From the IMG/VR virus record IMGVR_UViG_3300011116_000925, positions 24,486 through 88,485 of that record: a stretch of 64,000 nt of DNA, one strand, 5' to 3'. The position numbers and the translations under genes are program-made. This DNA is from a virus. This document shows, one piece after another, positions 5,493 through 56,874 of the stretch. Below the pieces are notes generated by a model. It made no database searches. It was not told the origin of the DNA and saw only the letters and a program-made list of their open reading frames with translations. Every line of letters starts with the position of its first letter. Position 1 is the stretch's first letter.

Positions 5493-5500
5493 ATATCTAT

Positions 5501-6515: not shown

Positions 6516-6523
6516 TATTTATA
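6516..6523 (-). promoter_or_regulatory. T4-type late promoter (TATAAATA)
   Basis: An exact TATAAATA lies on the minus strand 32 bases before the SpeD-like ATG at 6483, in the space after the upstream gene ends (6554). T4-like late sigma factors recognise this box. It supports moving the SpeD-like start downstream to 6483. Confidence 0.6.
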
Positions 6524-6553
6524 AGTTCTTTTGATGAAAGAATCAATTTCTTT

Positions 6554-7072: not shown

Positions 7073-7075
7073 TTT

Positions 7076-7618: not shown

Positions 7619-7621
7619 TCA

Positions 7622-9393: not shown

Positions 9394-9395
9394 AT

Positions 9396-11181: not shown

Positions 11182-11195
11182 CAATTACAACACTA

Positions 11196-11432: not shown

Positions 11433-11434
11433 AA

Positions 11435-11632
11435 TTAATTCCGAATTGATATATGTTTTAGATTTCGAGCTTTAGATCTTAGATTAAGGTGTGGTTGCCC
11501 AGTTCTTCGATTAATATTTGCTGCAATTCCATTAAATTGAGTACCTAATCGAGATAATTGCCTCACTGCTCTTTTGGCCAATTCTAATGCTCGTTCCTTA
11601 GTATTTCGTTTGGTTGTTTGTTTCTTATACAT
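11435..11632 (-). CDS. Small basic protein (65 aa)
   Basis: A strongly basic protein (KKQTTKRNTKERALELAKRA, then RRTGQPHLNLRSKARNLKH) with one clear amphipathic helix. It has its own TTGACC promoter and no ribosome binding site, so a leaderless message is likely. Nucleic-acid binding is plausible from charge alone. Function unknown. Confidence 0.5.
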   Translation of the reverse strand: MYKKQTTKRNTKERALELAKRAVRQLSRLGTQFNGIAANINRRTGQPHLNLRSKARNLKHISIRN

Positions 11633-11638
11633 TATTAG

Positions 11639-11667
11639 AGTTTATATGATTGATCAATCTAGGTCAA
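11639..11667 (-). promoter_or_regulatory. TTGACC promoter, leaderless geometry
   Basis: TTGACC (11662-11667), 17 bases, TAAACT (11639-11644), six bases, ATG at 11632. It matches the group at 1163, 5103 and 20148 except for one extra base in the spacer. A TTGATCAA palindrome lies within the spacer. Confidence 0.45.
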
Positions 11668-11679
11668 TCAATAAATTGG

Positions 11680-12138
11680 TCATAACCTAAAATCTTCCTG
11701 TCCGGCAATCTTTAGTTTTATAACATTGTTAATTTGGAAACCCTTAATATCAAGGGTTTTAATAATACCCTGCCATTTATTTCTCATTAATGCTACTTCA
11801 TTAATCAATTCTTGGTATATGACAACTTCATCGTCACCATCTGCATATTTCTCAGCATCTCTACTAGTCAATAACCGATTATATCCCTCTAAATATTTTC
11901 TAAATATTCCAATTTTCTTTTTATTCATTATAATGTTTAAATGTTCAAGAATGGCTTCAATTTCCTGAAGCTGTGAAAATCTTTGTTCTACGATACCAGG
12001 AAGATCACGGCTCAATTTTTCAACTGAGCCGGATATCCTAACCTCTAGTTTGGCTTGTAAATATTCTGATTCATACCAATCTAATGCATTTGGAATTTCA
12101 GATAAATTAGATTTGACTTTATTAAACCAAATTGCCAT
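11680..12138 (-). CDS. uvsY: UvsY-like recombination mediator
   Basis: At 152 residues the size fits T4 UvsY, the mediator that loads UvsX onto gp32-coated single-stranded DNA. The segment YNRLLTSRDAEKYADGDDEV and the helical end (NKWQGIIKTLDIKGFQINNV) match the T4 arrangement (a YSGRGDGDE-like acidic turn, then a helix ending in SRGFAIKHI). Position strengthens the call: it lies one small gene downstream of uvsX, with gp32 just beyond. The protein is mostly alpha-helical, as in the hexameric T4 protein. Confidence 0.7.
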   Translation of the reverse strand: MAIWFNKVKSNLSEIPNALDWYESEYLQAKLEVRISGSVEKLSRDLPGIVEQRFSQLQEIEAILEHLNIIMNKKKIGIFRKYLEGYNRLLTSRDAEKYADGDDEVVIYQELINEVALMRNKWQGIIKTLDIKGFQINNVIKLKIAGQEDFRL

Positions 12139-12368
12139 TATTCCTCAATTTCTTCCTCTTCATCATCAACTTCTAACGCTCTAGCTATTGATACGCTTAA
12201 GACTGAATCATTTCTAGCCAATTCCATTAGATCTTCATCACTCATATTATTACCCAGCAACCATTCTATATAGGCATCAGCGACTAGATTCTTTTCTTTA
12301 GGTTGAATACTAATAGCAAAAATATCCCATAATTCTAATGCAATATCTGCATCTAATATCACATGCAT
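12138..12368 (-). CDS. Unknown acidic protein between uvsX and uvsY (76 aa)
   Basis: Starts in the last codon of uvsX and ends at the first of uvsY, so all three are coupled. The product is acidic, with an Asp/Glu-only tail (VDDEEEEIEE), a feature often used to compete for DNA-binding surfaces. The N-terminus (MHVILDADIALELWDIFA) is hydrophobic-acidic. Position suggests a part in recombination, but nothing in the sequence proves it. Confidence 0.55.
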   Translation of the reverse strand: MHVILDADIALELWDIFAISIQPKEKNLVADAYIEWLLGNNMSDEDLMELARNDSVLSVSIARALEVDDEEEEIEE

Positions 12369-13423
12369 TATTCTTCCTCACTAACTTCTGATATAATTTC
12401 TAAAATTTGGCCCGATATAAATTCCCAATCTAACATGATCTTCATTAATATATCATCGGAATATGCCTTTTTGAATCCAATAAATTCTTCACCATTACTA
12501 AATTTAATCTTATAGCGATTTCCTTCACGAATGAAAACATTTTTAGATTCCAACATTTCCCACATTCCACTAAATGGATTCATCCCTTCATCCCAAGGAA
12601 TCTTAATCTGAACACTTTCAAATGGTTTATTATATCTAGTTTTCATAACCTTACATGCTGCTCTGATACCTCGAACATCAGTAACTTTATTTCCATCAGA
12701 ATCTTCCTTAAGCTTCAATTTTCTCATTGCTACTACAATTGAACTAGCATAAATGAACCCCTGGCCGCCACTGATCTTGTCATCAGGATCAAACATGTCT
12801 TGGCTCGCATATGTATGATTTGTGGCAACTAATCCTACGTTGAAATTGCCAAACATGTTAACACAATTTCGTATTAATGCTGTCAGTGCCTTAGGTTTTC
12901 GACCCATATCACCTTTAAGTTCACCACGGTCGAATTGATCAATATCTGTTTGTGTCAATAACATACCTAAACTATCAACAATGAATAATACCTTTGGTCT
13001 CTTGTCTTCGGGAGTTGCTCTATATTCCTTCATAAAATCTGAAATCAACTTTGCAACCTCATCAATCATACTTACACTAGCTTTGATGAGTTTATCTTCA
13101 TTGGTATCAACACCTAAGGCCTGTAGCCAATTTTCATCCAATGCATTTTCTGAATCAATGATTATAGGAAGCCATCCCTTAAGTTGAGCTTCTCTAGCTA
13201 AATTTCCAGAACAAATGAAACTCTTTCCACTACCACTTTCTCCCGCAAACATGGTAACTTTTCCCATTGGAACGCCCTTAAAAAAATCACCACTTATTCT
13301 ATAATTTAATACATAATTTCCTGTACTGATCCAATCGGTTGGATCATTAAATCCTAATGCCATATTAGGCACTGCTTTAGTCAAACTTTTTCTAAATTTT
13401 GAAATGTCGAACGCTTTGGTCAT
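12368..13423 (-). CDS. uvsX: UvsX RecA-like recombinase
   Basis: A RecA-family strand-exchange protein. Walker A is GESGSGKS near residue 63, Walker B is VLFIVDSLGMLL, and the sensor strand VGLVATNHTY is followed by the DNA-binding loop region (DDKISGGQGFIYASS). The C-terminal domain contains EGNRYKIKFSNGEEFIGFKKAY. It catalyses homologous pairing with gp32 and UvsY and drives recombination-dependent replication. Two ATGs lie two codons apart; AGGAAG is at the better distance from the second (13423), which I use. Coupled to the small acidic gene and uvsY downstream. Confidence 0.9.
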   Translation of the reverse strand: MTKAFDISKFRKSLTKAVPNMALGFNDPTDWISTGNYVLNYRISGDFFKGVPMGKVTMFAGESGSGKSFICSGNLAREAQLKGWLPIIIDSENALDENWLQALGVDTNEDKLIKASVSMIDEVAKLISDFMKEYRATPEDKRPKVLFIVDSLGMLLTQTDIDQFDRGELKGDMGRKPKALTALIRNCVNMFGNFNVGLVATNHTYASQDMFDPDDKISGGQGFIYASSIVVAMRKLKLKEDSDGNKVTDVRGIRAACKVMKTRYNKPFESVQIKIPWDEGMNPFSGMWEMLESKNVFIREGNRYKIKFSNGEEFIGFKKAYSDDILMKIMLDWEFISGQILEIISEVSEEE

Positions 13424-13455
13424 GATCATTCTTCCTTATTAATATAAATTAGTAG

Positions 13456-13488
13456 TAATAGTGAATTGATGACATCAATTCACTATTA
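13456..13488 (-). terminator. 16-bp inverted repeat between gp32 and uvsX
   Basis: Two perfect 16-base arms flank one central base (A at 13472), making a very stable stem-loop eight bases after the gp32 stop. There is no T-run on the minus strand, so it may act as a weak terminator, an RNA-stability element or a protein-binding dyad rather than a classical terminator. Confidence 0.55.
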
Positions 13489-13495
13489 TTCATTT

Positions 13496-14494
13496 TTAAG
13501 ATTTTGGTTGACGATCTCGAATCATCTTTAATATATCTTCAGCTCGTGCGCCGCCAGGTTTCTTTGTTTCGATAACCTGAGATATGGGAGTCGTCTGTTC
13601 TGCAGAATTTTTATTTTCCACAATACGAACTTCTGGTTTAACAACATTTGAAGTTACGTTTGTTGTAATTAAATCTGCATCATCAGTTTCTGCAGTAGAA
13701 TTAGTCTTTCGATCATATGATTTATAAAACATCCCAAATTTATCTGAATCAAAATTATCACCATTTACACTTGATTCAAACATTTCTTTAATAAGCTTTA
13801 ATTCATCAGTTGTTGGTTTCTTTGGAAGAAAATCCTTAAGATTAAAGAGTCCAAATTTTTCAATAGCTTCTAATTCTTGATCATTAAGAGGACGTTCTCG
13901 ACGTGCCCAGGTGCTTGTACCATAATCAGCATATTGTCCTTTAGAACCTTTGATAATTCTAAAATCCAATCCACGTTTAATATCAGTTGGAAGTTCTTCC
14001 ATCTCAGGATCCATCAATGCTCCCTTAATAACATTGAAAATCTGAGGATTAATAACCAACCTACGAATTGGATTTTCGGGAATAACTTCTTCTTTCATAG
14101 GACTATCTACTATAAAGCCTTGAAAAATATAACTACGCTTTTTCCAATACTTTCTTCCCATATCTTCAAGACTCTTATCCTTGAACCAATTTCGTACTTC
14201 AGCTAAGATAGGACAAGTTTCTCTCCACATCTCCATACAAGGAACTTGAACAGTAATAGACTTACTGTCGTCTTGACCCTTAATACCACGAAAAGGTAAT
14301 TTAATCATATTTCTTTCAACCCAGAAAAATGAATTTGTGGTATCTTTGTCTGCCAAAAATCTAACGGTTGCGGTGCTGTTATCTGGAATATTCCAATGTG
14401 CATATACACTGGTATCTGTGGAAGCACCTGTTCCACTTTTTCCTTTTTCAGATTCTGCCTTAAGCTTTGCTCTAATTTCTAATAATGTTGCCAT
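13496..14494 (-). CDS. 32: gp32 single-stranded DNA-binding protein
   Basis: The 332-residue protein has the gp32 plan: a basic N-terminal B domain (LLEIRAKLKAESEKGKSG), an OB-fold core, a metal-binding region (VPCMEMWRETCPI with two Cys; another Cys/His is less obvious), the YWKKRSYIFQGFI strand, and a Ser/Thr/acid-rich C-terminal arm ending PGGARAEDILKMIRDRQ. It coats single-stranded DNA in replication, recombination and repair and partners UvsX/UvsY encoded downstream. A good AGGAG precedes the ATG. The leader holds duplicated start-site sequences and a hairpin, described separately, which may regulate translation. Confidence 0.85.
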   Translation of the reverse strand: MATLLEIRAKLKAESEKGKSGTGASTDTSVYAHWNIPDNSTATVRFLADKDTTNSFFWVERNMIKLPFRGIKGQDDSKSITVQVPCMEMWRETCPILAEVRNWFKDKSLEDMGRKYWKKRSYIFQGFIVDSPMKEEVIPENPIRRLVINPQIFNVIKGALMDPEMEELPTDIKRGLDFRIIKGSKGQYADYGTSTWARRERPLNDQELEAIEKFGLFNLKDFLPKKPTTDELKLIKEMFESSVNGDNFDSDKFGMFYKSYDRKTNSTAETDDADLITTNVTSNVVKPEVRIVENKNSAEQTTPISQVIETKKPGGARAEDILKMIRDRQPKS

Positions 14495-14536
14495 AATGTT
14501 TCTCCTATAAATTTTGCCATAATGCTTGCCATAATG
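14488..14536 (-). repeat. Three direct copies of the gp32 start-site sequence
   Basis: The 11-mer TTGCCATAATG (minus strand CATTATGGCAA) occurs at 14488-14498, where it contains the gp32 ATG, at 14514-14524 and at 14526-14536. The two upstream copies carry ATG-GCA in a shared frame that encodes a 17-residue peptide (MASIMAKFIGETLWQHY) ending at a TAG inside codon 5 of gp32. Confidence 0.7.
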
Positions 14537-14547
14537 TATCTAATAAA

Positions 14548-14586
14548 AAATGCATTACAAGTTACTATAATGCATTTCTATTTATG
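14548..14586 (-). promoter_or_regulatory. Late-type promoter (CATAAATA) with hairpin in the gp32 leader
   Basis: CATAAATA on the minus strand (14579-14586) resembles the T4 late box. Immediately after it lies a perfect 9-bp inverted repeat (14548-14556 and 14569-14577, AAATGCATT/AATGCATTT) with a 12-base loop. T4 gp32 mRNA is autoregulated through its leader, so this structure is a candidate regulatory element. Confidence 0.45.
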
Positions 14587-14622
14587 TCGTCTATATTATA
14601 ATATTAAAATCTGTAAGATTGA

Positions 14623-17600
14623 TTATGGTTTTACTCCAGTCTGTAAAGCTTTGGCAGCAGCCATCAATCTTGTTTTGTCTACGAAGTTTTTAGTTGCATC
14701 CATCTTATTGGTCAATACCTTAGACAAATCCTCAAGACTCATATTATTAATGTCTGATAAACTTGGTCCACCCATTGAGGAAGTACCCATTGAAGACATT
14801 GATGGCATCGAATCTGATGATGAATATCCTGTTGCATTGTTTCCACCATATCCATCTCGACCCATCAATACGGCCATTTTGTAAATCAATTGATTTACAG
14901 TTTTCTTATCTTCTTTCATTGCACTAGGTGCAACTCGACGAACAACTGGTCTCAATGGTTTCTGATTCATAGTCATTGGTCTAATTGCAGGACCTGTTGT
15001 TCTTGGAACATTAGATGTCTGTTGTGTGGTCGCAGTAGGTGGTTGTGGTTGACCACGTTGAGGAGGCATTGTAGGTGCAAGTTGTGGTTGAGCTGACGCC
15101 TGTTGTTGACTAGGCATAGATGTGTCTCCAACACCAGGTGACATAGAATTCATCATATTCAACGCTGAATTAAAATCATTTGTCATTTTATCAACTGGAT
15201 ATCCCATTCTAGATCCCCAATTTCTTAGAGCAGTGATTGCTTCTGGACTATCAATTTTTATATTGGCCTTTCCCAGAGCTTTCATAAAATCAACATAAAT
15301 TTTATTTGCGTGTTGATTTGTTTCTTTTTCTCCAGCAATCTGTGCCTGTTTTCCACGAGCCATTGGACCAAGAGCATTCCATGCTTTTCCCCTAGCCCAA
15401 GTACCTAAGTTTTTACCTACACCAACAGGTGCTTCACTTAGATTTTTTTTTTGCTTTTTTCGAGATTCAGACATTCCTTTACTTGAAGCGGACATCGCTA
15501 ATTGTACCTGTTTCAATGCATTAGTTAGATGTATTGATAAATTCTTAGGCAAACTTGGAATTGTTTCCCTAATTTTATTATAAACATCTGTTAATATATC
15601 CGAATCAGACATTCCTTCATGAATTGCATTTGGTTCAATTTGTTGATTAGAAGTTGTTGAACCTGCTAGTTCTAATGCTTTGTGAATTTCCTGTAGTGCC
15701 TTCATTAAATATTGAGATATATGTCTTGGTAAACTTGGAATTGTTTCCCTAATCTTGTTATACACATCATTCAATATTTCAGAATCAGACATGCCCTCAG
15801 ACATTGTTGCTTTTTCCGTTGGACCCGAAGATGCTTTAACCACATTAATTGCCTGTAACATTGCTTGCATTGCCTGATTCATGTGTTCAGATGCAACCTT
15901 TGGCATACTAGGAATAGCTTCTCTAATTACATTATAAATTTCACCTAAGATAGTAAGATCTGGTCTTCCTTCATTAATTTGTTTAGATTCAGTAACTTTA
16001 GATAAAGACTTCAATTCTTTTTTAAGTTTGGCTAGATCTTGTTTCCAATAACGATCATACATATCAGTACCACTGGCTCCGCCATACCAACCTTGATCAG
16101 ATTCAAGCTTCTTAATCTTTCGTTCCAGTGATGCTTTCTTATCAGTATTTTCTAAGGCCTTTTCTTTGCTAGGTTTATTCACGATACGACCATGAGCTGT
16201 CATTTCCTTACCACGAGGAATACCTTTAAATTTAGTAGAATTTTTCTTGATAGCTTCATCTACTGTTTGAACTTCTTTTTCTTTTCGTTTGTCAATCTTC
16301 TTTCCTGTTTTATCATTTTTCTTTTCTTTTGATAATCTTCTCTTTGTTTCCTCAGTTTCTTTTTTTGTTGACGCTGCTGATTTTCTTGCCTCGTTAACAT
16401 GTTCTTTATTTTCCCTATAATCTTTATCGCCCTTATGACCTACAAGCTTGTAAGTTTCATCATGTCCTGCTTTATATGCTTCTATTTCAGATTTATCAGT
16501 TAAACTAACTCGTCTTCCATCTATGATTTTATGTGGGTTTTCTCTACGACCATACCATGCATCTGCACCACCTCTATCAAATGGTCCACCATGTGTTCTA
16601 TCATATTTAGAATTTTGTCCATCATCTTCATTTTCTTCTTGAGTCTGTTCTTTTCCAGGCATTATTTTTTCAAGTTCATTTTGAGCCATGCTTCCAATTT
16701 TTGCTCCAGTCATTGCACCAGCTGGAGTTTTTGTTAATGCTCCGCCTGCAACTGCTCCTAATGCTGCTCCTGTAAATCCTTCTGTAATTCTAATTCCGTC
16801 TTTTCTTAATGCTTTGCGAGTAGTATTTTCAAGTATTCTAATTAAATTGTGAGTTTTCAACCATTCAATAATTACCGGCCTTGCATCGTCTTCTGCATTT
16901 CGCTCCGCTAGATCACTCAACATGAATGATAGTTTTTCATCTTCTATTAAACCAATTAAACTACCAATAGCATTAATGCCATCTTCACCAAGATTAATCT
17001 TCGTTTGCATCAATTCATTGAATTTCTTTTTTTGATCCATACTAGTTGGACTAACATTAACTCCCTCGGTAATTAATCGAGCCCAATCCTTAAAGCTTTC
17101 CATATATTTTGTAGGTGAATTATTTTCTTCTATATCTCCCTTGAATGCGCCTAAGGTATCAGCATTTACAAATGCCTGAACCAATGCTAATGCTCTTTTA
17201 TATTCAGGACTTGCCTTTTCTTTTGCAAATGCCATTCTATTATGATGATCATCTAACATATCACTCATACGACTCATAAAATTAGATATTTCTTCATTTT
17301 TACCGGAAAATTCAGATGCCACATCACTTGCTTTACGAGCAAGTTTACTTGCTCCTTCTGGAGTTCCAATGTCAGTTGACATAGATACTACCAATTTAGG
17401 ATCAAGTTTTTTAGAAACCATAACTTGTTTTAGGTAATTCATAACGGCAACCATATTACCAAATACACCTCCTTCTTGATCACGTTCTTTTTCCTGCAGT
17501 AAGGCACCAATCAATGGCAATGTATCTGACAAACTTTCGTCAAACGACTTAACCGTAAATGTATTCTTTAACATTTGTATCCTATCATCATTAAGTTGTA

Positions 17601-18468
17601 ATTCTGGAGTTGATTGCATACTAGCAGACATCTGTCCATATGTCTTTGAGTTGCTCAATTGTTGCAAAATATTCTTAGCATCAATGATATTTTTAGAAAC
17701 CACATCTAAAATTGTTGCCGTGCTTTCATTTACCAATCCATTATTCTTAGCATATCTTTGGAATTTCTGTAATTTAGATATCCTACCAGCCCATTCTAAA
17801 ATTCTTTGGCCAACAACATCGTGCATCGTACCACTATTAACCATATGCCGCGCCATTGCACGGCCAGCCCATAGATTATTAACTGGTAATCTAAATCTTT
17901 CACCTTGACCATTTTCAAGATAAATTGATTTTATTGCTCTAGTTCTACTTCCCTTGATATTTTCATCAATTGGTTTCATATGTTTTACAATAAGTTTAAT
18001 ATTATCCAACTTTTGGTAGCTACTTCGAGATGAACCAAACATAGGGTTCAATGCCTCACTAATTCCATTCATCGCAAGTTCCTTTTCTTTTGATAATTCC
18101 AAATTATCTTGTTTGCTGTCATCAATCGCCTTAGTGAAATCATCTCCAGTAACCCTATTAATCGTAAATCTCACATCTGGTCTCATATCAGCAACACGTT
18201 TCAATCGCATTATAAATTTTTTATAGATCCCTCGAGATCTATCATCCATATTATCTTCCATATTCGGAGTTACCAATACAAGTAGATTATTAGGATTCAG
18301 GATACTTATTGACATTTTACCATATGAAAAATATGGAAAACTAATTACTTTTGCAGTTTCTCGGTCTGTTGTTGGCTGCCCATTTTCATCAGTCATAGTC
18401 ACACTAGTAGGATCTATGGAATTAACTACTTCATAGATATCTTTTATGATTCCAGTATCAGCTTGCAT
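14623..18468 (-). CDS. Very large virion-type protein with internal repeats (1281 aa)
   Basis: A multi-domain protein found next to terminase. Residues 1-250 are an ordered domain (KLDNIKLIVKHMKPIDEN, VNNLWAGRAMARHMVNSG). A Gly/Ala zipper-like segment (GFTGAALGAVAGGALT) lies near residue 565; a highly charged Lys/Glu region follows; then three tandem ~55-residue repeats (VYNKIRETIPSLP core), and a Pro/Gln-rich end. I recall similar unnamed structural proteins beside terminase in marine T4-like phages. A Gly-zipper plus long disordered parts would suit an internal capsid or ejected protein, but that is inference. No ribosome binding site is seen; ACTAAATA lies four bases before the ATG. Confidence 0.6.
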   Translation of the reverse strand: MQADTGIIKDIYEVVNSIDPTSVTMTDENGQPTTDRETAKVISFPYFSYGKMSISILNPNNLLVLVTPNMEDNMDDRSRGIYKKFIMRLKRVADMRPDVRFTINRVTGDDFTKAIDDSKQDNLELSKEKELAMNGISEALNPMFGSSRSSYQKLDNIKLIVKHMKPIDENIKGSRTRAIKSIYLENGQGERFRLPVNNLWAGRAMARHMVNSGTMHDVVGQRILEWAGRISKLQKFQRYAKNNGLVNESTATILDVVSKNIIDAKNILQQLSNSKTYGQMSASMQSTPELQLNDDRIQMLKNTFTVKSFDESLSDTLPLIGALLQEKERDQEGGVFGNMVAVMNYLKQVMVSKKLDPKLVVSMSTDIGTPEGASKLARKASDVASEFSGKNEEISNFMSRMSDMLDDHHNRMAFAKEKASPEYKRALALVQAFVNADTLGAFKGDIEENNSPTKYMESFKDWARLITEGVNVSPTSMDQKKKFNELMQTKINLGEDGINAIGSLIGLIEDEKLSFMLSDLAERNAEDDARPVIIEWLKTHNLIRILENTTRKALRKDGIRITEGFTGAALGAVAGGALTKTPAGAMTGAKIGSMAQNELEKIMPGKEQTQEENEDDGQNSKYDRTHGGPFDRGGADAWYGRRENPHKIIDGRRVSLTDKSEIEAYKAGHDETYKLVGHKGDKDYRENKEHVNEARKSAASTKKETEETKRRLSKEKKNDKTGKKIDKRKEKEVQTVDEAIKKNSTKFKGIPRGKEMTAHGRIVNKPSKEKALENTDKKASLERKIKKLESDQGWYGGASGTDMYDRYWKQDLAKLKKELKSLSKVTESKQINEGRPDLTILGEIYNVIREAIPSMPKVASEHMNQAMQAMLQAINVVKASSGPTEKATMSEGMSDSEILNDVYNKIRETIPSLPRHISQYLMKALQEIHKALELAGSTTSNQQIEPNAIHEGMSDSDILTDVYNKIRETIPSLPKNLSIHLTNALKQVQLAMSASSKGMSESRKKQKKNLSEAPVGVGKNLGTWARGKAWNALGPMARGKQAQIAGEKETNQHANKIYVDFMKALGKANIKIDSPEAITALRNWGSRMGYPVDKMTNDFNSALNMMNSMSPGVGDTSMPSQQQASAQPQLAPTMPPQRGQPQPPTATTQQTSNVPRTTGPAIRPMTMNQKPLRPVVRRVAPSAMKEDKKTVNQLIYKMAVLMGRDGYGGNNATGYSSSDSMPSMSSMGTSSMGGPSLSDINNMSLEDLSKVLTNKMDATKNFVDKTRLMAAAKALQTGVKP
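15490..15970 (-). repeat. Three tandem coding repeats in the 1281-residue protein
   Basis: Three copies of a ~55-codon unit encode IYNVIREAIPSMPK, VYNKIRETIPSLPR and VYNKIRETIPSLPK, each followed by a helix rich in Gln, Ala and Met. The second and third copies share EGMSDS before the core; the first is more diverged, suggesting successive duplications. Confidence 0.75.
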
Positions 18469-18493
18469 CTTATATTTAGTCTATTTAAATATT

Positions 18494-20065
18494 CTATCTG
18501 AGTACATAGAAAGGTAATGGAACCTGTTTTTCTATTTCAAATTTCTCTGAAAATTGATTATAAATGCGTTCATCATAACTACTGATATATTGTCCCATTC
18601 TAATATTCAACAAGGTGGCAAGAACCAAATCATCATGTTCACCAATCTTTGCTTTATATGATCCACCTATTGCAATAAATGTTTTAAATTCACTTATCAG
18701 AGCTTTGCTATTAATTTTAATTCTATCAGATTCAATTAATGTTTTAATTTTACTACAGGCTGAAATTTTAGATTTTTGCGTGGTCGTAAATCCTTTTCTA
18801 TGTCTTCGAGTATTTCCCATTTTGGCTGGTTCAGTTAAAAATGTGCCTGGTATATTCTCTTCACCCATTTCTTCAATAACGATTAATGCTGCTTCACCTA
18901 TTGTATTATTTTCAATACTCCAATATATTGGTGCATCATCACCCGCACAATCACGAATAAACAAATTTATTTCTTTGAGTATCTTGATTTGATTTGTAAT
19001 AACCGTTCTATTATGTTGCCATTCTGCCACTTGTTCTAATGATGGCAATTCAAATACTTGAATCGCAGCGGAATCTCCACCTGTGCCTAAACTAGGATCC
19101 AAACTAGTTAGGTATGTATTTCCAGAAGAAGGTAATTTAAACCATCGAACCTGTCCTTGTTTTTGTATAGGTTCTTTTCCTTGCATGTTTGCTAATTTTA
19201 TTGGATTAATCAAGAGTTCATCATCTTGAATAAATTCTAAAGCATGTTCTCGTCTAAATTTTTCATCACCAATTCTACTTCTTTCTTCATTAGCCCATGC
19301 TTCATCTCTGTCAGGATGTGATTTCCAATCACATTTAAATGCTCTAAATCCATTAACTCCCAATTCTTTTTTATTTCCATATTCATCATATGTTCTATTT
19401 GCTTCTTTCCAAATTACAGCAAATGTATCTTCATCACTATTAGGAGTTGATGTAATAATAGCTTTTCCACCTGTACTAAGAGTTGGACTGATACTGGTCC
19501 AAAATTCAGCAGCGATACTTGGTCTGACATAGGAAAATTCATCACAATAGAGTAAACTAATAGCAAGACCTCGTCCAGTTGTTTCTGTTGTGGTCGTACT
19601 TATTATTCTACTTCCATTTATGAATGTAATACTTCCTTTATTATAATCTAATGCTGCATCTCGAATATGATTTGGCACGTTTTCATATGCAAATCGCACT
19701 CGATTCATAATTTCTTGAGAACCACTATATTTGTGGGCAGCGATCAAGATCGTACTATCCGGAATGAACATAGCATACCATAACAAATATGCGGCAGCAC
19801 AGGTCGTTTTTCCTAATTGCCTTCCAAGTAGGTTTATGCTAAATCTGTAATTATGATAGGTATGAACCAAATCCAATTGATATTGGTATGGTTCCAATAA
19901 TAATCTACCCTTTACAGGATGTTGAATATATACGAAATTCTTCATAAAATATACTGGTCCATCTACTGGATCAGCACATTTCATTAATTCCTCTTCTTCT
20001 TGTTCTGTATATCGTACTTGTGTTGATATGGTTTTAATAAACGTATTTTTGTTATAAGTTGACAT
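18494..20065 (-). CDS. 17: Terminase large subunit (gp17)
   Basis: The packaging motor ATPase/nuclease. Walker A is the phage-type GRQLGKTT (81-88), Walker B LLYCDE (171-176) ends in the catalytic Glu, and the coupling motif lies in ITSTPNS. The RNase H-like nuclease domain shows its acidic residues in TSLDPSLGTGGD, in the IYWSIENN strand and in GEHDDLVLATLLN. The length of 523 is normal. It docks on the portal (gp20, at 59.9 kb) and cuts concatemers. TATATT lies six bases before the ATG, compatible with a leaderless transcript. An HNH gene diverges upstream. Confidence 0.95.
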   Translation of the reverse strand: MSTYNKNTFIKTISTQVRYTEQEEEELMKCADPVDGPVYFMKNFVYIQHPVKGRLLLEPYQYQLDLVHTYHNYRFSINLLGRQLGKTTCAAAYLLWYAMFIPDSTILIAAHKYSGSQEIMNRVRFAYENVPNHIRDAALDYNKGSITFINGSRIISTTTTETTGRGLAISLLYCDEFSYVRPSIAAEFWTSISPTLSTGGKAIITSTPNSDEDTFAVIWKEANRTYDEYGNKKELGVNGFRAFKCDWKSHPDRDEAWANEERSRIGDEKFRREHALEFIQDDELLINPIKLANMQGKEPIQKQGQVRWFKLPSSGNTYLTSLDPSLGTGGDSAAIQVFELPSLEQVAEWQHNRTVITNQIKILKEINLFIRDCAGDDAPIYWSIENNTIGEAALIVIEEMGEENIPGTFLTEPAKMGNTRRHRKGFTTTQKSKISACSKIKTLIESDRIKINSKALISEFKTFIAIGGSYKAKIGEHDDLVLATLLNIRMGQYISSYDERIYNQFSEKFEIEKQVPLPFYVLR

Positions 20066-37876: not shown

Positions 37877-38338
37877 ATGACAAGTTATGCAAGTGGTGGA
37901 ATTTTCTATAATATCAATACTAATAAATTTTTATTTTTACTTAGAGGAGATAGTAGTTTCAAGAATAAATGGGGTATAGTTGGTGGTAAACGAGATAATT
38001 ATGAATCAGATATAGATACCATATTGCGTGAAACTAGAGAAGAAATTGGATTTCTACCTTATATCAGAAGTATAGAAGAAATTGATCAATTTATTAGTGA
38101 TGACAAAAAATTTCAATATTCTACATATTTTATTGTCGTTAATGATGAATTTAAACCAATATTAAACAGAGAACATTATGGATACGCTTGGGTTCGACTA
38201 AATTGTTGGCCCAAACCATTACATCCTGGATTACACAAAACTTTGTCAAAAGAAATTGTACAAATGATAATTTCTAAAAAAATTACAGAATATTTTATAT
38301 TCAATTCTACATCAACAAATGCCAAGGATCAGGACTAA
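37877..38338 (+). CDS. Nudix hydrolase
   Basis: A 153-residue Nudix protein. The box is complete: GGKRDNYESDIDTILRETRE followed by EIGF, matching G-x5-E-x7-R-E-U-x-E-E-x-G-U, with the metal-binding glutamates in RETREE. Residues before it (FLFLLRGDSSFKNKWGIVGG) are typical of small Nudix enzymes. It cleaves a nucleoside diphosphate linked to another moiety; the substrate is unknown (NDP-sugar, NAD-type, mRNA cap or oxidised dNTP). Its end overlaps the opposite oxygenase-like gene by 32 bases. Confidence 0.85.
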   Translation: MTSYASGGIFYNINTNKFLFLLRGDSSFKNKWGIVGGKRDNYESDIDTILRETREEIGFLPYIRSIEEIDQFISDDKKFQYSTYFIVVNDEFKPILNREHYGYAWVRLNCWPKPLHPGLHKTLSKEIVQMIISKKITEYFIFNSTSTNAKDQD

Positions 38339-50351: not shown

Positions 50352-51476
50352 TTATCCATTCAATATTGTTACTGATGATCCTTCAACTGCTGAACCAAAT
50401 GTCCATGGAACACTTATTCCAGTTGATCCTGTAGTGAATTGTGTTCCAGTTCTACTACCTTTGACAATAACTGCTTTATGTGCAGTTAATTTAGTAACAT
50501 AATATGTTCCACCATCACTATCAGTTGCAGTTAATGTCATTTGTCCAGCAGATGGTGCTGCGGCTACTAATTTACATACTCCTGTACCATCAGATGTTAT
50601 AACTCTATATGTTTTAGAATTTTCCTGTTTGATGATATCCGCAGGATGAGCACTTCCACCAGTAATATAAGCACTCGCTTTAATAGCTGGTAAATTGCTA
50701 TTTGTTAGCGTTGCAGTTGCGGCTGCTCCTGTACTTCCTGAAAATGTTAATGCTGCATCTGATGCTTGATAATATCCTGCACCACTTGTTACTACGCTTA
50801 CACTTAACAATTTCATTGTTGCAGTTAATGTTGCACCAGTTCCACCAGATGGTGATACCGTTGTTGCTCCACCAGCACTTGGAAATGTCGTATAATCTCC
50901 GGCGACGGTAGGTGTTGATGTTAATGTATTAACTCCCCAAAGAATATTAAATGTAGGTGTACCTACTCCAGATCCTGTGGTTGAATTTGCTGTTACTGGA
51001 TTTGCGGGTTTTGCGGCAATTCTACTTCCAGCTGTGGTCACACTTACCGTGGTAATTTGATCTGATCCATTAACTGCGGTAACGGTCAATACTGTATTGG
51101 TTCCACCAGCATTTGTAAATGTAAAGGTATCATTAATTGCCCAACCAGAAGTTCCACCAGCTTGAACTGTTGCACTTACTGCCTTAATAGCAGATACTTC
51201 AAATTGTGCTGCGGTTACTGCGGTTCCAGTTGTTAATGTTAGGACATCATGATAATTATATCCTGATCCAGCAGCAACCACGGCAGCACTGGATGATTTA
51301 TAATGAGCTAATACGGTAGCTATTACTCCACCAGGAAGCGGAGAGCCTACTGTAACCGTTGGTATCGTGGTCCAGCCAGATCCAGCTGTAATTGATCCAT
51401 AGCTAGCAACACCTTCACCACCAACTTGAACCGTATTTGTATTTCCAAAATATTTCTTTTGTAGAGGACGTCCCAT
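50352..51476 (-). CDS. Virion structural protein (374 aa)
   Basis: Starts MGRPLQKKYFGNTN after AGGAG. The protein is built from beta repeats of the type GSGWTTIPTVTVG / GSGYNYHDVLTLTTG / GAGYYQASDAALTFSG, each with a G-x-G-(Y/W) turn. A fibre or decoration role is likely. The leader carries a late box and a 5' hairpin. No specific T4 counterpart is recognised. Confidence 0.65.
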   Translation of the reverse strand: MGRPLQKKYFGNTNTVQVGGEGVASYGSITAGSGWTTIPTVTVGSPLPGGVIATVLAHYKSSSAAVVAAGSGYNYHDVLTLTTGTAVTAAQFEVSAIKAVSATVQAGGTSGWAINDTFTFTNAGGTNTVLTVTAVNGSDQITTVSVTTAGSRIAAKPANPVTANSTTGSGVGTPTFNILWGVNTLTSTPTVAGDYTTFPSAGGATTVSPSGGTGATLTATMKLLSVSVVTSGAGYYQASDAALTFSGSTGAAATATLTNSNLPAIKASAYITGGSAHPADIIKQENSKTYRVITSDGTGVCKLVAAAPSAGQMTLTATDSDGGTYYVTKLTAHKAVIVKGSRTGTQFTTGSTGISVPWTFGSAVEGSSVTILNG

Positions 51477-51524
51477 TTATTTTTCTCCTTGTTATAGGCG
51501 TTCTATGCCCTACGCTGTGGGTCA

Positions 51525-51564
51525 GCATAAAAACGATTATGTATAATCGGATATTATATTTATT
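51525..51564 (-). promoter_or_regulatory. Late box with 5' hairpin upstream of a structural gene
   Basis: AATAAATA at 51557-51564 on the minus strand is followed seven bases later by CGATTATACATAATCG (a 6-bp stem with a 4-base loop) and then TTTTT. The hairpin lies at the expected 5' end of the transcript; with its T-run it could also work as an attenuator-like terminator. Confidence 0.5.
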
Positions 51565-51581
51565 GATTTTCAACCATATAT

Positions 51582-51610
51582 GATTATAGGGACCTAAGGT
51601 CCCTATAATC
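51582..51610 (-). terminator. 13-bp hairpin after nadV
   Basis: A perfect 13-bp stem (51582-51594 with 51598-51610, GATTATAGGGACC/GGTCCCTATAATC) with a 3-base loop, two bases after the nadV stop. No long T-run follows on the minus strand; it may terminate or protect the mRNA end. Confidence 0.65.
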
Positions 51611-51612
51611 AC

Positions 51613-53007
51613 TTATTCAAACTTGCCAGCTGCTCGTTTTCTAATAGATTCAAAATTATCATCAATTAATAATTCACCATTTTTAAACACAACTCGTAAT
51701 TCGTTTTGCCACGAATTCCCACTCTCTGGTTTGCATGTTGCTATTCCTTTTTCATAAACAACAGCAAAACGACCCTTCTTACTAATTTTACCATGGTCTG
51801 TAACGGGATCTTTATATACGTCATACCACTTACCATCTCTATTAATGGCAGAACATTTCATTGCCCATTTTAATGTATCTCTATTCAATCCTTGAAGTAA
51901 CATACCTCCCATACCAAATGCAACATTTTCCGAACTCCATCCATTTCTAGTAATAAATTCGAGGATTTGTTCGATACTTGATAAATTAATTCCGTCACCT
52001 TGAATAACTCGAATATATGGTGGAAGTACCTTATAACCTAATTTATTCACAGAATATCCAAATGACACTCCTAACCTATTCAAGCATTCTAATACTACTT
52101 CATGTGGTGTCCCACTATCTGGTCTAACGACCACGGTTGCACCACATTCAATAACCATTGATCTAAGTTGATCGCCCCAGATATTACTTATAGCATTATA
52201 AATGTCATAACTATCACTAACTACTGCTAATAAACCACCAGGCTTAGAAAATTTTTGAACCATATTTGCATATGCATCTACTTCACCTTCCCTACCCCAA
52301 CTGGTTATTGTGCTATGTTCGGCAGCTGGAATGCTGAAACCAACGGCAGTTTCAGTATTATAAAATTCAATTGCTGCAACCAATGCTCCCATGGTATCAG
52401 TACCTAAGAAATTAATTAAATGAGCTAGTCCACCTAATTCACCACTTTCCTTGCTGCTGACTCCTCGATATCCAAAATCATGTAATTTAAATCCAATTTG
52501 GGATTCTGGATCTTCACATGTTTTAATCAAATAATCCATTATGATTTGTTTGGCATGATAACTAATTGTTGCTACCGTTGATGGATACCAAACTGCTCGA
52601 AGCAATGATGTTTCCAAAAAACTTGTTAACCAAAAACATTTTGGATCAGTATTTTCAATTGTCAAGACAGGAATATGTGTAGGCACTACCATACCTTCTG
52701 GTAATGCTCTAATAATTACTGGTAACTTTCCATTATGTTTATTAACGATATAATCCCATCCAATTCTATTAAATGGTAGACCGTGCGCAATAGTAATCTT
52801 TTCTGCAAAATCCACATCTTCAGATGTGATTGGAATTGTTAAATATTTCTTAATAAATGCCTGTAAGCCAAACATTACTAATTTATTAAACTGTCCACCT
52901 CTACTTTCAATATAACTATATACAGTTTCTGTGTTGGGTGGATATTGTAAGAAATGGCTGTGTTTATAAGAATCGGTATTTAGAATTATTGAGTCTCTAA
53001 CTTTCAT
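51613..53007 (-). CDS. nadV: Nicotinamide phosphoribosyltransferase
   Basis: A 464-residue NAMPT, full length for the family. The N-terminal signature LNTDSYKHSHFLQYPPNTET is diagnostic; the nicotinamide/phosphate-binding region includes GFKLHDFGYRGVSSKESGEL and VVVRPDSGTPHEVV. It joins nicotinamide and PRPP to give NMN, the first salvage step. GGAG lies seven bases before the ATG. The NMN adenylyltransferase gene lies 50 bases upstream, so both steps to NAD are encoded together. Such pairs are known to rebuild NAD during NAD-depleting immune responses. Confidence 0.95.
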   Translation of the reverse strand: MKVRDSIILNTDSYKHSHFLQYPPNTETVYSYIESRGGQFNKLVMFGLQAFIKKYLTIPITSEDVDFAEKITIAHGLPFNRIGWDYIVNKHNGKLPVIIRALPEGMVVPTHIPVLTIENTDPKCFWLTSFLETSLLRAVWYPSTVATISYHAKQIIMDYLIKTCEDPESQIGFKLHDFGYRGVSSKESGELGGLAHLINFLGTDTMGALVAAIEFYNTETAVGFSIPAAEHSTITSWGREGEVDAYANMVQKFSKPGGLLAVVSDSYDIYNAISNIWGDQLRSMVIECGATVVVRPDSGTPHEVVLECLNRLGVSFGYSVNKLGYKVLPPYIRVIQGDGINLSSIEQILEFITRNGWSSENVAFGMGGMLLQGLNRDTLKWAMKCSAINRDGKWYDVYKDPVTDHGKISKKGRFAVVYEKGIATCKPESGNSWQNELRVVFKNGELLIDDNFESIRKRAAGKFE

Positions 53008-53057
53008 AGTAAATCTCCTTTACTGTTGCTATGATTCAAAACGTCTATCGTTCTGAT

Positions 53058-54068
53058 TTAGATTCTGGCTAAAAGATTGTGAATAATGTCATAATGGTCT
53101 TCAAACATCATTGCACGTTTTATTGATGCAATAGGAAACCAGACAGCCTTCTTTGCATCATCACTGCCTTTGACTTTAGGCAATTCTAAATCATCCTTAA
53201 GTTTAAATAAGAATGCATGAGTAATAGTTCGTCCTCGTGAACTACGATGTGGGTCATCAAATACATCACGTTCAACCATACTTCCACGTAATACAGGTTC
53301 TGGAACTTTGATTTTTGTTTCTTCACGAAGTTCTCGAATTACTGCATCAATAATCTTTTCTTGAGGATTTAAAAATCCTCCAGGCATAGCCCATAATCCT
53401 TTTCCTGGATATCCTCTTCTTTCAACTAAAAGAACATTACCACCTTGTACCACAACAGCATCAACTGTTGAAAAAATAGGAGTATATGGTGCATTTTTCC
53501 AGGCCAATTTATATTTGGCAACAAATTCAAATTCTTGCGCAATCTGTTGATAATGTTTAGAATTACGATGTAATTCCAAATGAGAAATCATTTGTTCCGT
53601 CAAATATTGATGATAATTAGTTTTCAATAATCCCCAATATCCTTCTCGAATATCAGTCGCATTAATAGGTGGAATATTAGGGAAACCAATATTATCCCAT
53701 TGTGGAAATAACTTTAAATAGAAACTAGAGCCATCCTTCTGATGGCCCAAAAGAGCCACCCTATCATTCATCATTATATGTTTAGATACTAATTCTTGAA
53801 CTTGTGAAATCCAAGCGGAATCATTATAAGTTCTATCTTCAAGTGGTTCAAATATAATTCGATCATCATATTCTGATGAATCATAATGCATCTTGATCAT
53901 TTTAGCACGATCAAGCCAATGCCATGGATTTCGAATATTAGGAGGCTGATTAGCACTTCCAACCAATATTAACACTTTTTTTGCTTTTGTGAGGCCATTA
54001 TCAATGATGCTTTTATGTCCTAGGTGAAATGGCTGAAATCTACCTATAAAGACCGCTAAATCGTACAT
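53058..54068 (-). CDS. nadM: Bifunctional NMN adenylyltransferase/Nudix hydrolase
   Basis: Residues 1-~180 form the nucleotidyltransferase domain: FIGRFQPFHLGHKSII with the HxGH motif at 15-18, the WLDRAKMI helix and a C-terminal ISQVQELV segment. Residues ~200-336 form a Nudix domain with the complete box GGFLNPQEKIIDAVIRELRE followed by ETKI. It adenylates NMN to NAD; the Nudix half usually cleaves ADP-ribose. The start at 54068 is chosen because AGGAG is eight bases upstream (only two from the ATG at 54074). A TATAAATA promoter and a 5' hairpin precede it. Confidence 0.9.
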   Translation of the reverse strand: MYDLAVFIGRFQPFHLGHKSIIDNGLTKAKKVLILVGSANQPPNIRNPWHWLDRAKMIKMHYDSSEYDDRIIFEPLEDRTYNDSAWISQVQELVSKHIMMNDRVALLGHQKDGSSFYLKLFPQWDNIGFPNIPPINATDIREGYWGLLKTNYHQYLTEQMISHLELHRNSKHYQQIAQEFEFVAKYKLAWKNAPYTPIFSTVDAVVVQGGNVLLVERRGYPGKGLWAMPGGFLNPQEKIIDAVIRELREETKIKVPEPVLRGSMVERDVFDDPHRSSRGRTITHAFLFKLKDDLELPKVKGSDDAKKAVWFPIASIKRAMMFEDHYDIIHNLLARI

Positions 54069-54093
54069 TGGCATAACTCCTATACCGTTAATT

Positions 54094-54127
54094 CAATGAA
54101 GTCTATCTTCATTGTCATATATTTATA
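54094..54127 (-). promoter_or_regulatory. Late promoter (TATAAATA) with 5' hairpin upstream of nadM
   Basis: TATAAATA at 54120-54127 on the minus strand. Five bases further lies a perfect 8-bp stem (54094-54101 with 54107-54114, CAATGAAG/CTTCATTG) with a 5-base loop, so the transcript would begin with the hairpin, followed by AGGAG and the ATG. Confidence 0.65.
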
Positions 54128-54159: not shown

Positions 54160-55599
54160 CTAAATTTCAAAAATTAAATTACCGCAGTCCCAATATCTCC
54201 TATATCCTGAATTAAACATATTTTTGGATTCACTCAATTTAGAATCATATGATTTTAACCATTTTGATAATTGTTTCTTTTGCGCTTTATATCGTGAAAT
54301 AACCTTGGTACCATCTGTCCAAAAATATCCAGGTTTGCTATTACCAATCAATTTAAATCCAGATGCCAAATATCCATTGCCAATACTTTTGGATCTATCA
54401 CAATAAGTAATAAATAATCCAGAATGATATTTTTTAGTATGTGATATGAGTTTGCTTAATCCACCCACGACAGTATATCCGATCTTAGTTGATATACGAA
54501 GAATTTCCAAATTATTATTTTTCTTAAATCTATTTTTACCAAATCCTATCATCATTACAAGTTCTTGATCTAAAAATAACCCATATGCGATTGTTGATCT
54601 TATATAACCCTGTATATGATTATCTATTAAAAATTTCCTAGTTTCTTTATTTGTTAAAGATCGAACCTGACATTTTCGTGCATAAATTTTATTGGTTAAT
54701 CCAAGTTTTGATTTAATAAGATCCTTAATTATTTCTGCCTTATTGATCCATTCAAAATCTGTAATATGTAATAATTGAATTCCATATTTCTCACATTCTA
54801 TGGTTTTATCCAAATGTTTGTTCTTATAATCTGATTCAAGTTCAGATGACGGAGCGGAATGCCAATATAATCCATTAATTTCTATCGCTAACTTAGATGA
54901 TGGAATATAGATATCAATTTCTTTATTTTTTAATATTTTCCAATTAGATTCTTCTATTGAAACTCCTAATGATTTAATATAAGTTCCAATGTCTTTTTCA
55001 ATAATACTATAATTAGATGTTTGTCTTATTTCAAATCCATATAATTTTAAATAATCAATAACAGTTCCATAATAAGTGTTTAATTCTTTTGCAATGTCAA
55101 CAGTTGTTCTTTTCTTAACTTCATATTCTTCAGTTAACCAAATTTTATCATTCAATTTATTAAAAACATTTAATGGAATCTTAGGTTTTGTCCATGAATG
55201 ATGAATTTCTGGACGTTGACTATTGTATCCCACACCATATTTCAAAACCATTGAATTTAATCTTTTTTCATTGATCTTAGAATTCTGATCATCTGAATAA
55301 TTTAATTTGGTTTTAGAAACATTGAACTTAATATTATTTTTTGTACATTGACACACATTTGCTGGACCACACATTGTCCATCCAGAATTAAATCTAGATA
55401 TCTTTTTAATATTACCAAATTCACAAAGATTTGATTCTTGATATATTGCACTGTAAATTTTATCCTTAAATTCTGTTGTCTCAATTAAAGAATTTTTATC
55501 AATCCATTTTACCAAAACATCATTCTTTTTAATAATTCTAATATAATGTTTAGGATTCTTTTTTATAATATCTAAAATATCAAGTCGTTGTTGTTGCAT
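54160..55599 (-). CDS. Homing-type endonuclease with Vsr-like nuclease domain
   Basis: A 479-residue protein between the capsid gene and nadM. The central region ILKNKEIDIYIPSSKLAIEI, then NGLYWHS and HLDKTIECEKYGIQLLHITD, has the PD-(D/E)xK/Vsr-like order (Asp in EIDIYIP, Glu in AIEINGLYWH). A predicted helix-turn-helix (TTVDIAKELNTYYGTVIDYL) precedes it, and a C-terminal domain (FITYCDRSKSIGNGYLASGF) follows. Similar proteins are freestanding homing endonucleases of T4-like phages. TATAAATA lies five bases before the ATG with no ribosome binding site, so a leaderless late message is likely. Confidence 0.7.
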   Translation of the reverse strand: MQQQRLDILDIIKKNPKHYIRIIKKNDVLVKWIDKNSLIETTEFKDKIYSAIYQESNLCEFGNIKKISRFNSGWTMCGPANVCQCTKNNIKFNVSKTKLNYSDDQNSKINEKRLNSMVLKYGVGYNSQRPEIHHSWTKPKIPLNVFNKLNDKIWLTEEYEVKKRTTVDIAKELNTYYGTVIDYLKLYGFEIRQTSNYSIIEKDIGTYIKSLGVSIEESNWKILKNKEIDIYIPSSKLAIEINGLYWHSAPSSELESDYKNKHLDKTIECEKYGIQLLHITDFEWINKAEIIKDLIKSKLGLTNKIYARKCQVRSLTNKETRKFLIDNHIQGYIRSTIAYGLFLDQELVMMIGFGKNRFKKNNNLEILRISTKIGYTVVGGLSKLISHTKKYHSGLFITYCDRSKSIGNGYLASGFKLIGNSKPGYFWTDGTKVISRYKAQKKQLSKWLKSYDSKLSESKNMFNSGYRRYWDCGNLIFEI

Positions 55600-55648: not shown

Positions 55649-55669
55649 ATAGGGGCTCAAGGCCCCTAT
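55649..55669 (-). terminator. Intrinsic terminator after gp23
   Basis: An 8-bp GC-rich stem (ATAGGGGC at 55649-55656 with GCCCCTAT at 55662-55669), 5-base loop, then CGTTTT on the minus strand. It ends the major capsid transcript 30 bases after its stop. A GTTTT run on the plus side makes it possibly bidirectional. Confidence 0.8.
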
Positions 55670-55698: not shown

Positions 55699-56874
55699 TT
55701 AGCTGAATTTTAAATTCGTGGTGTTGATTCCGATTGTTGAAACGTAATCAGCGGCATTACCTAGTGATGATGCTGTATTTGTTAATTCTTTATACCCATA
55801 ACGAGTTAAGAAACCAACAGTTGGCTCAAAAGTAGTTGGATCAAGCACAACTCCACTGCTCATCAGTGGAATATATGGACAATAGAACGCTGCTGCATCT
55901 GTTTCACTTGAACCCTTATATCCTAACAATACAACTGTGTTACTTGGTGCATATGCATCAACGTAAACCTTCATACTGCTATTCAATGTTCCAACAAACT
56001 TAGTGTTAGTTGGGGCTTCGAATGTTCCTTCAGTTGTTCTTGCGAATGCAGAAGTTGTTGCACTCTGAAGAATTGTTAAGGTGTTGCTACTTACAACGGC
56101 CCAATTTGCTGCGCCACGACGTGTGCGTTGTGCAACCAAGTTAGCCTGTTGATTGATAAGAACAGCTAATGCAGCATGTTCGTCACCGACGAAAGTTGCT
56201 GTACCACTTACTGCTGCTTGATCATAAGTTGCTGCGGTGTTACCTGGCAATGCACGTAGGCTTGTCAAGATTTCCTGATCTATTTCAGCAGTAATTTCTT
56301 GAGCAAGTGCTGCCATAACTTCAGCTTCAACGTCAATACCATGAATAGCATTTGCATCTTGTGCTGCTTCAAAGGTCCAACGTGCGCTTAGTTTACGAGA
56401 CTTAGCCTCAACAACTTCACGCAATACTTGAATGCTTAGACGGTTACCAGCAACGCCTTCAAGAGCTGCTACGCTAGATGCTTTAGGAGTTGCCAATACG
56501 GCATTACCTGAATAACTAGCTGCAATTTTGAATGGGCTCAATGCTTCTTCACCTGCCATTACACCGGCACCAGTGCTCGTGTCACTGTATCGTACACGTA
56601 GAGTGTGAATCTGACCAACTGGTCCTGTCATTGGCTGCACACCAACGATTTCGTTGGCGATAACAGTTGGCATAACACGACGAATAATTGGAAGAATTAC
56701 TCTATTTAGAGTTGCAATATTACCAACGCTGGTTGCACCAGCTGTTGCTTGTTCCATAAGATGTCGACGGGTATTATCTAGGACCGTGCTCATTGCGTCC
56801 CTTCTAATTCCTGTTAACCCTTCGGTTAGAGCTGCTTTAGTATCTCTCCAGCCCTCATTAAGAATGTCTACCAT
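55699..56874 (-). CDS. 23: Major capsid protein gp23
   Basis: A 391-residue HK97-fold capsid protein of the gp23 family. The motif VILPIIRRVMPTVIANEIVG followed by VQPMTGPVGQIHTLRVRY is highly conserved in gp23. The N-terminal ~50 residues are the part normally removed by gp21. It is somewhat shorter than T4 gp23 (521 residues), as is common in marine relatives. AGGAG precedes the ATG; base composition is raised, consistent with high expression. A terminator follows. Confidence 0.95.
   Translation of the reverse strand: MVDILNEGWRDTKAALTEGLTGIRRDAMSTVLDNTRRHLMEQATAGATSVGNIATLNRVILPIIRRVMPTVIANEIVGVQPMTGPVGQIHTLRVRYSDTSTGAGVMAGEEALSPFKIAASYSGNAVLATPKASSVAALEGVAGNRLSIQVLREVVEAKSRKLSARWTFEAAQDANAIHGIDVEAEVMAALAQEITAEIDQEILTSLRALPGNTAATYDQAAVSGTATFVGDEHAALAVLINQQANLVAQRTRRGAANWAVVSSNTLTILQSATTSAFARTTEGTFEAPTNTKFVGTLNSSMKVYVDAYAPSNTVVLLGYKGSSETDAAAFYCPYIPLMSSGVVLDPTTFEPTVGFLTRYGYKELTNTASSLGNAADYVSTIGINTTNLKFS

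Follow-up and report, generated by a model that had tools for sequence, protein, structure and literature searches.

The window, by which we mean the whole stretch of 64,000 nucleotides analysed here, corresponds to bases 24486-88485 of an 88.5-kb IMG/VR record. Its major capsid protein shares 69-70% identity with the capsids of Rak2/GAP32-like jumbo phages, which identifies the window as part of the genome of a jumbo T4-like myovirus. Here nadV and nadM, both on the minus strand, are flanked by the capsid gene (gp23) and by further structural-type genes (Table 1), and a ~50-nt structured leader RNA, overlooked in an earlier sequence-only reading of this DNA, stands before each of them, which makes two copies in the window. 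That reading had proposed an adjacent pair composed of a nicotinamide phosphoribosyltransferase (NAMPT) and an NMN adenylyltransferase/Nudix enzyme; the adjacency holds as a two-gene minus-strand operon, and both identities are borne out by intact open reading frames, Pfam and NCBIfam matches and retained catalytic residues.

NadV matches the Pfam families NAMPT_N (3e-28) and NAPRTase (2e-57), lies above the cut-off of NCBIfam NF006629 and scores 421 bits against human NAMPT. It keeps the human residues D16, Y18, R40, F193, R196, D219, H247, R311, D313, D354 and R392 as D12, Y14, R36, F178, R181, D204, H231, R295, D297, D338 and R376, respectively; by alignment, H231 (human H247), D204 (D219) and R181/F178 (R196/F193) are nicotinamide, PRPP and phosphohistidine residues, and the catalytic residues are invariant in our alignment A8 too. 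NadM matches CTP_transf_like (2e-9) and NUDIX (1e-21) in Pfam, reaches 450 bits, above the cut-off, with the NCBIfam model of bifunctional NMNAT/Nudix proteins (NF003786), and carries the motifs GRFQPFHLGH (HxGH), NATDIR (TxxR) and the Nudix box GX5EX7REUXEE, which were checked against the invariants of alignment A3. Its open reading frame opens at 54074, but the ATG at 54068 given in the earlier reading is the better start, since AGGAG lies 8 nt before it and just 2 nt before 54074. With catalytic residues conserved in both enzymes, the proposed route from nicotinamide to NAD+ is supported at the level of prediction: NadV would convert nicotinamide and PRPP to NMN, the adenylyltransferase half of NadM would join NMN and ATP into NAD+, and the Nudix half could cleave ADP-ribose or NAD+. 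Judged by sequence, the enzymes are of the known phage NAD salvage type (KVP40 NadV/NatV, NARP2). NadM followed by nadV is also the arrangement in unrelated phages (of Ruegeria, Rhodobacter, Synechococcus, Xanthomonas and Salicola) and in IMG/VR contigs, at identities of 35-61%. A second, stand-alone Nudix hydrolase gene lies at 37877-38338 (+) of the window.

Table 1. Features of the window discussed in the text (window coordinates)
Feature	Position	Strand	Basis or detail
RlaP-family RNA-repair nucleotidyltransferase	279-1187	-	Pfam 8e-20
ADP-ribosyltransferase (ART)-like protein, starts MRFYEIFES	7076-7618	-	weak sequence matches
14-bp hairpin, 1 nt past nadV stop	51581..51611	-	-25.4 kcal/mol, z -5.5; no T tract
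nadV, NAMPT, 464 aa	51613..53007	-	Pfam, NCBIfam, active-site residues
Leader copy 2, before nadV, in 50-nt gap after nadM stop	53005..53058	-	R1 50.3 bits, E 3.7e-8
P2 of copy 2, AGUAAA-GGAGA-UUUACU	53008..53024	-	Shine-Dalgarno 53015-53018 in loop
P1 of copy 2, 8 bp, loop AUAGA	53036..53056	-	TCAGAACGATAGACGTTTTGA
nadM, bifunctional NMN adenylyltransferase/Nudix hydrolase, 336 aa from ATG 54068	53058..54068	-	NF003786, 2QJO
Leader copy 1, before nadM, match reaches start codon	54066..54116	-	R1 45.7 bits, E 3.8e-7
P2 of copy 1, GGUAUA-GGAGU-UAUGCC	54070..54086	-	Shine-Dalgarno 54077-54080 in loop
P1 of copy 1, 8 bp, loop AUAGA at 54102-54106	54094..54114	-	CAATGAAGATAGACTTCATTG
T4-type late promoter, just upstream of leader hairpin	54120-54127	-	exact octamer TATAAATA
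Homing endonuclease, between gp23 and nadM	54160..55599	-	phrog_3339 5e-98
Terminator hairpin after gp23, operon's upstream boundary	55649..55669	-	resembles post-nadV hairpin
Capsid gene (gp23)	55699-56874

Setting of the operon and neighbouring genes

None of 23 gp23-relative contigs, all of them fragments, contains nadV or a full nadM, and in two gp23 relatives (L051 and L059) a homologue of the homing endonuclease directly follows gp23. Both facts indicate that nadM-nadV is probably cargo inserted downstream of gp23, and the endonuclease probably came in with it or next to it. As far as these fragments go, an ancestral place of the pair beside gp23 is ruled out. Between the gp23 terminator and the structural genes that follow, the loci L019-L098 show a site of variable cargo. 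Terminator-like hairpins follow gp23 in 58 of 70 gp23 relatives, and the hairpin past nadV is probably the 3' end of the operon transcript. The idea that the hairpins around endonuclease-nadM-nadV are transposon ends found no support, as both resemble transcript 3' ends and the relatives have terminators there. Further downstream, at 51474-51548 (-), lies a freshwater-2 RNA (Rfam RF02980, an orphan cis-regulatory motif) in the 5' UTR of the open reading frame 50352-51476; several jumbo-phage relatives have a freshwater-2-like element following gp23, in L060 and L086 with Rfam confirmation, and the orphan motif is thereby located ahead of a gene in the structural region of a phage.

The sequence-only reading had further cast the protein at 7076 as an ADP-ribosyltransferase-like second NAD user whose ADP-ribose product the Nudix half of NadM could recycle. 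The first part is plausible without being firm: there is no significant family match (best PARP, 0.012), and a predicted structure of low confidence (pLDDT 63) matches ART-fold enzymes, Tpt1/KptA being the best (Foldseek E 4e-4, TM 0.4). The second part is weak: these nearest folds are RNA 2'-phosphotransferases, whose product is not free ADP-ribose, and a link with nadM-nadV, 44 kb away, is unsupported beyond shared NAD chemistry, the gene lying beside polyamine genes. Given the RlaP-type gene near the start of the window, a role of the 7076 protein in RNA repair appears, on this modelled fold, as likely as protein ADP-ribosylation. Its homologues occur in Vibrio phages such as Kuja. The polyamine genes, for S-adenosylmethionine decarboxylase and agmatinase (6088-6546 and 7622-8584, both minus strand), lie a few kilobases apart and possibly represent a phage polyamine pathway. 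Outside the window, in bases 1-20000 of the record (L002), three tandem paralogues at 14983-17421 (-), of 272-296 aa, ~40% identical and with no Pfam match, have homologues in Agrobacterium phage Atu_ph07 and Salicola phage SCTP-2; we had the impression that their spaced R, S and E residues recall R-S-E ADP-ribosyltransferases and that their N-termini, MRxxExFxES, resemble capsid-targeting peptides, the 7076 protein starting alike.

A structured leader RNA before nadM and nadV

The leader was first seen when the regions upstream of nadM were compared between phages, where the AUAGA loop is fixed and the stem changes; 80 further nadM loci agreed. It consists of a hairpin (P1) with the pentaloop AUAGA, a ~9-nt linker and a second hairpin (P2) that holds the Shine-Dalgarno (SD) sequence in its loop. 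Within 60 nt upstream of nadM, the density of AUAGA hairpins is ~95 times that in the rest of the loci, and most of those outside this zone precede nadV. Among AUAGA copies taken without selection, a stem of at least 4 bp is found for 47% in the leader zone versus 4% elsewhere. In 110 P1 hairpins the covariation reached 0.900 versus 0.201 after shuffling and at most 0.231 when the alignment was slid, with 84% of cells pairing; the three innermost pairs had been selected for in this set, and the five unselected outer pairs are still paired in 65-93 of 109 sequences. Whole leaders (n=74) give 0.823 versus 0.175 shuffled, and their P2 has 96.5% of cells paired, each of the six pairs showing changes in both strands of the helix. 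P2 was not a selection criterion, and of 141 nad leaders 98.6% have the SD in the loop of a hairpin with at least 4 bp, versus 15.8% of 298 other open reading frames of the same loci. Besides the helices, the pentaloop (A-N-A/U-G-A) and the SD alone are strongly conserved; the linker is A/C-rich (7% G) and of tight length (interquartile range 8-11 nt), as in a compact fold. The loop type matches between the nadM and nadV leaders of one phage, AGAGA phages having mostly AGAGA in both. A DNA operator is ruled out, for the loop, which is not palindromic, stays fixed on arms that change freely and in compensation.

The combination of AUAGA hairpin, SD and open reading frame occurs 107 times before nadM or nadV and five times elsewhere in 712 kb, and not once in 708 kb of control phage DNA. 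In those same 708 kb of gp23 loci, a covariance model trained on phages alone (R1) gave no match at E<0.5, and nadV leaders have the element without a promoter, which rules out a general late-gene leader. Over 33 phage records R1 yields 57 matches at E<=0.05, mostly one each before nadM and nadV; matches in the loci L109-L188, some of which went into building R1, arise partly by construction, and the control, bacterial and nadV sets are more independent. When 80 phage nadV loci of another set were searched with a second model, R2, built from phage and bacterial sequences, they gave 93 matches at E<=0.05, all on the sense strand. Other genes behind R1 matches are pnuC (PF04973, 7e-46 and 5e-15), nadA (PF02445, 1e-83 in L129, and a homologue in L410 by sequence resemblance) and a gene for an uncharacterised protein of 213 aa. 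The presence of nadA and pnuC downstream of the leader indicates that the common thread is NAD and not one enzyme. The uncharacterised protein, of ~214 aa in L165:1774-2412 and L134:1820-2464, has the motif RPGWHSDG and no Pfam match, and lies behind the NAD leader in three contigs. Another uncharacterised protein, of 125 aa, is encoded at 2942-3319 (-) of the window, where its gene has no AUAGA-hairpin leader; such a leader does lie upstream of its homologue in L207 (35% identical) and of a similar open reading frame in L291, so that it may be a further NAD-linked gene.

The element is not confined to phages. On 80 bacterial nadM loci, which were no part of its training, R1 finds 71 matches at E<=0.01, preceding nadM, nadV or, in L387, a NadA-like gene, with Pseudoalteromonas, Marinobacter, Hahella, Kordiimonas, Xanthomonas and others as sources; single bacterial copies may be of prophage origin. 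A phage-only element is thereby ruled out. In 16 whole bacterial genomes (~83 Mb) R2 gives 24 matches, and 24 of the 24 lie in loci with nadM and/or nadV. In a broad sample the leader is rare, being found under strict filters in two of 229 gammaproteobacterial genomes, and wide occurrence in this class was set aside on that count. It was not recognised in some phages that bear the gene pair (KVP40-like ValKK3, SCTP-2, XacN1 and RAS14), which means that the operon can work without it.

The octamer TATAAATA is rarer than chance in the window (5 copies versus 14 expected); four of the five copies sit at coding-strand gene starts, and there are no antisense intergenic ones. At nadM leaders of relatives, TAAATA occurs on the sense strand in 42 of 59 and on the antisense strand in 0 of 59, and downstream of gp23 in 70 relatives the figures are 49 sense and 5 antisense. 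The exact late promoter claimed for the pair can thus be confirmed as a predicted element whose arrangement recurs in relatives. Its end lies a median of 4 nt ahead of P1 in nadM leaders, whereas a single one of 45 nadV leaders has a late promoter, which suggests that one late transcript probably starts at P1 and carries the second leader inside. The further claim, that the pair acts late, agrees with the promoter sequence, but simple late control misses the leaders that sequester the SD; their being common to NAD genes suggests that expression is tuned homeostatically to NAD status instead of being simply late.

Possible roles of the leader and of the operon

The best reading of the leader, as its conservation pattern presents it, is that of a translational switch responding to some signal related to NAD, either as a metabolite riboswitch or, with lower probability, as a protein-binding RNA operator. 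Transcription from the late promoter would yield an mRNA that begins almost exactly with the ~51-nt leader and holds the second copy between the genes, inside the same message. In each copy P2 would hide the SD, while P1 with its AUAGA loop, together with the ~9-nt A/C-rich linker, would form the sensing part. The ligand, which we infer to be a metabolite rather than a protein, would be NAD+-related (NAD+, NMN, NR or nicotinamide). Pathway logic would have both messages closed while NAD is plentiful and open once NAD drops, as it might when an NADase defence is triggered or when late synthesis runs fast. That this is a late NAD+ salvage operon whose leaders are riboswitches for an NAD+-related metabolite, opening when NAD falls, seems to us evenly balanced between right and wrong. 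We are slightly more reserved about the wider proposal of a third NAD+-sensing riboswitch class, of ~50 nt with pentaloop and SD hairpins, serving nadM, nadV, nadA and pnuC in phages and some bacteria so that NAD enzymes would be made only when NAD is low.

A conserved, covarying leader on the genes of one pathway is what is generally expected of a riboswitch, and a metabolite is favoured because the downstream genes vary (salvage, synthesis and uptake) and the linker is compact. Several observations weigh on the other side: the few conserved bases, pentaloop and SD, are little for a metabolite aptamer and suit a protein site too, the loop type shared by both leaders of a phage is what a co-evolving protein would leave, and several pair-bearing phages have no recognisable leader. 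In its simplest, autogenous form a protein operator would mean that NadM (or NadV) binds the AUAGA hairpins and blocks translation when in excess. Protein sites, phage boxB and coat-protein operators among them, typically show a conserved pentaloop above a stem whose sequence is free, the loop variant is common to both leaders of one phage, and nadM is nearly always near in genomes that bear the element; yet the element also precedes nadA and pnuC, the tight linker and the SD hairpin are conserved as one unit, and six nadV contigs, fragments all, have a hairpin-like match with no nadM seen within ~8 kb. On this evidence we consider the protein operator rather unlikely, though it deserves more credit than the idea that the hairpins merely stabilise the mRNA or tune translation without any sensing. 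Hairpins at 5' transcript starts and over SD sequences are indeed common in T4-like phages, but the latter idea does not account for the conserved loop, for compensation in the stems, for an element that keeps to NAD genes in phages and several bacterial groups alike, or for the excess of SD hairpins over other genes of the same loci, and it appears quite improbable.

The sequence-only reading had taken the pair for a dedicated late counter-defence of the NARP2 type, restoring NAD+ after NADase effectors such as those of Thoeris, DSR or Sir2-APAZ have fired, a role for which the leaders would be irrelevant. Phage NAD+ salvage by NadV with NadM or NadR has been described and proposed to act against NADase effectors (PMC9503650), PMC11984713 cites NARP2 as a means of replenishing NAD+ once NADases have been activated, and NARP2 proteins are reported in vibriophage particles (PMC12028318). 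Against a dedicated role, bacterial genomes have the same gene pair and the same leader, so that ordinary NAD homeostasis explains the existence of the pair, and the phage of the window has no known NADase target or defence context. We therefore hold exclusive counter-defence to be possible but rather doubtful; counter-defence may nevertheless be a benefit of the pair, and, to judge from the bacterial copies, the module seems to have a part in ordinary NAD supply too. It is hardly credible that NadV is in fact Namat, the ADPR-PP-using ligase of NARP1. Namat belongs to the same fold family, and its structures 9W5X/9W5W were matched, but NadV scores twice as high to true NAMPT (548 bits with the Xanthomonas protein versus 256 with phage Namat 9W5X). 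At the positions of the Namat adenine clamp, Phe392 and Tyr396 (PMC12774641), NadV has Met369 and Gly373 when mapped by eye through human numbering, no Adps-like match was found among the ORFs scanned (part of those of the record), and the NMNAT partner, which NARP1 does not need, is present. NARP1 (Adps plus Namat) is ruled out on these grounds.

Phage NAD+ repair is currently of interest as counter-defence, and the leader offers a direct handle on how phages control it; leader control of this kind would suggest that homeostasis is as much a function of the pair as counter-defence. As a mark of NAD genes across phages and bacteria, the element can also be used to find new ones, such as that of the recurrent 213-aa protein.

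Comparison with known NAD+ systems and RNAs

NadM resembles the Synechocystis slr0787-type enzyme (PDB 2QJO, 299 bits over the entire length and both domains) and its Francisella homologue 2QJT, with no difference of note. KVP40 likewise joins a NAMPT with a bifunctional NMNAT/Nudix enzyme in a T4-like phage and reportedly expresses its nadV-natV genes early or delayed early. The window genes differ in that a single late operon holds both, each behind its own structured leader, and the KVP40 relative ValKK3 has no leader match. As cited in PMC7139368, the nadV-natV salvage of Vibrio phage KVP40 suffices to make NAD+ from nicotinamide (Lee et al. 2017). NARP2 performs the same two enzymatic steps as are predicted for the window pair; RNA control of NARP2 is not described in the literature searched. 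The enzyme pair is thus already known from other viruses, and what is apparently new is the leader RNA before both genes.

Compared with Rfam 15, the leader gave no match at gathering scores and none that was meaningful at E up to 5-10; this includes NAD+-I (the nadA motif), with the reservation that the presence of both published NAD motifs in the Rfam copy is unconfirmed. A full-text literature search returned nothing on nadV/nadM leaders or a third NAD class, most subscription journals lying outside its scope, so that absence is not proof. Within Rfam 15 and the literature searched, the leader is apparently a new RNA. NAD+-I is a tandem bulged stem-loop with a ACANCCCC bulge (PMC7297122) and NAD+-II a pseudoknot with an A5 strand (PMC10085692); unlike the leader described here, neither is described with an AUAGA pentaloop hairpin, and the published NAD+-II RNA (S. 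parasanguinis-like), compared by eye, has another sequence and architecture. Were the leader a riboswitch, it would add a third class to those known for NAD+ and would be one of the few examples of a phage late operon under metabolite control. With NAD+-I and NAD+-II it shares its place before NAD genes and a ribosome-binding site held inside the structure, nadA and pnuC being found downstream here as well.
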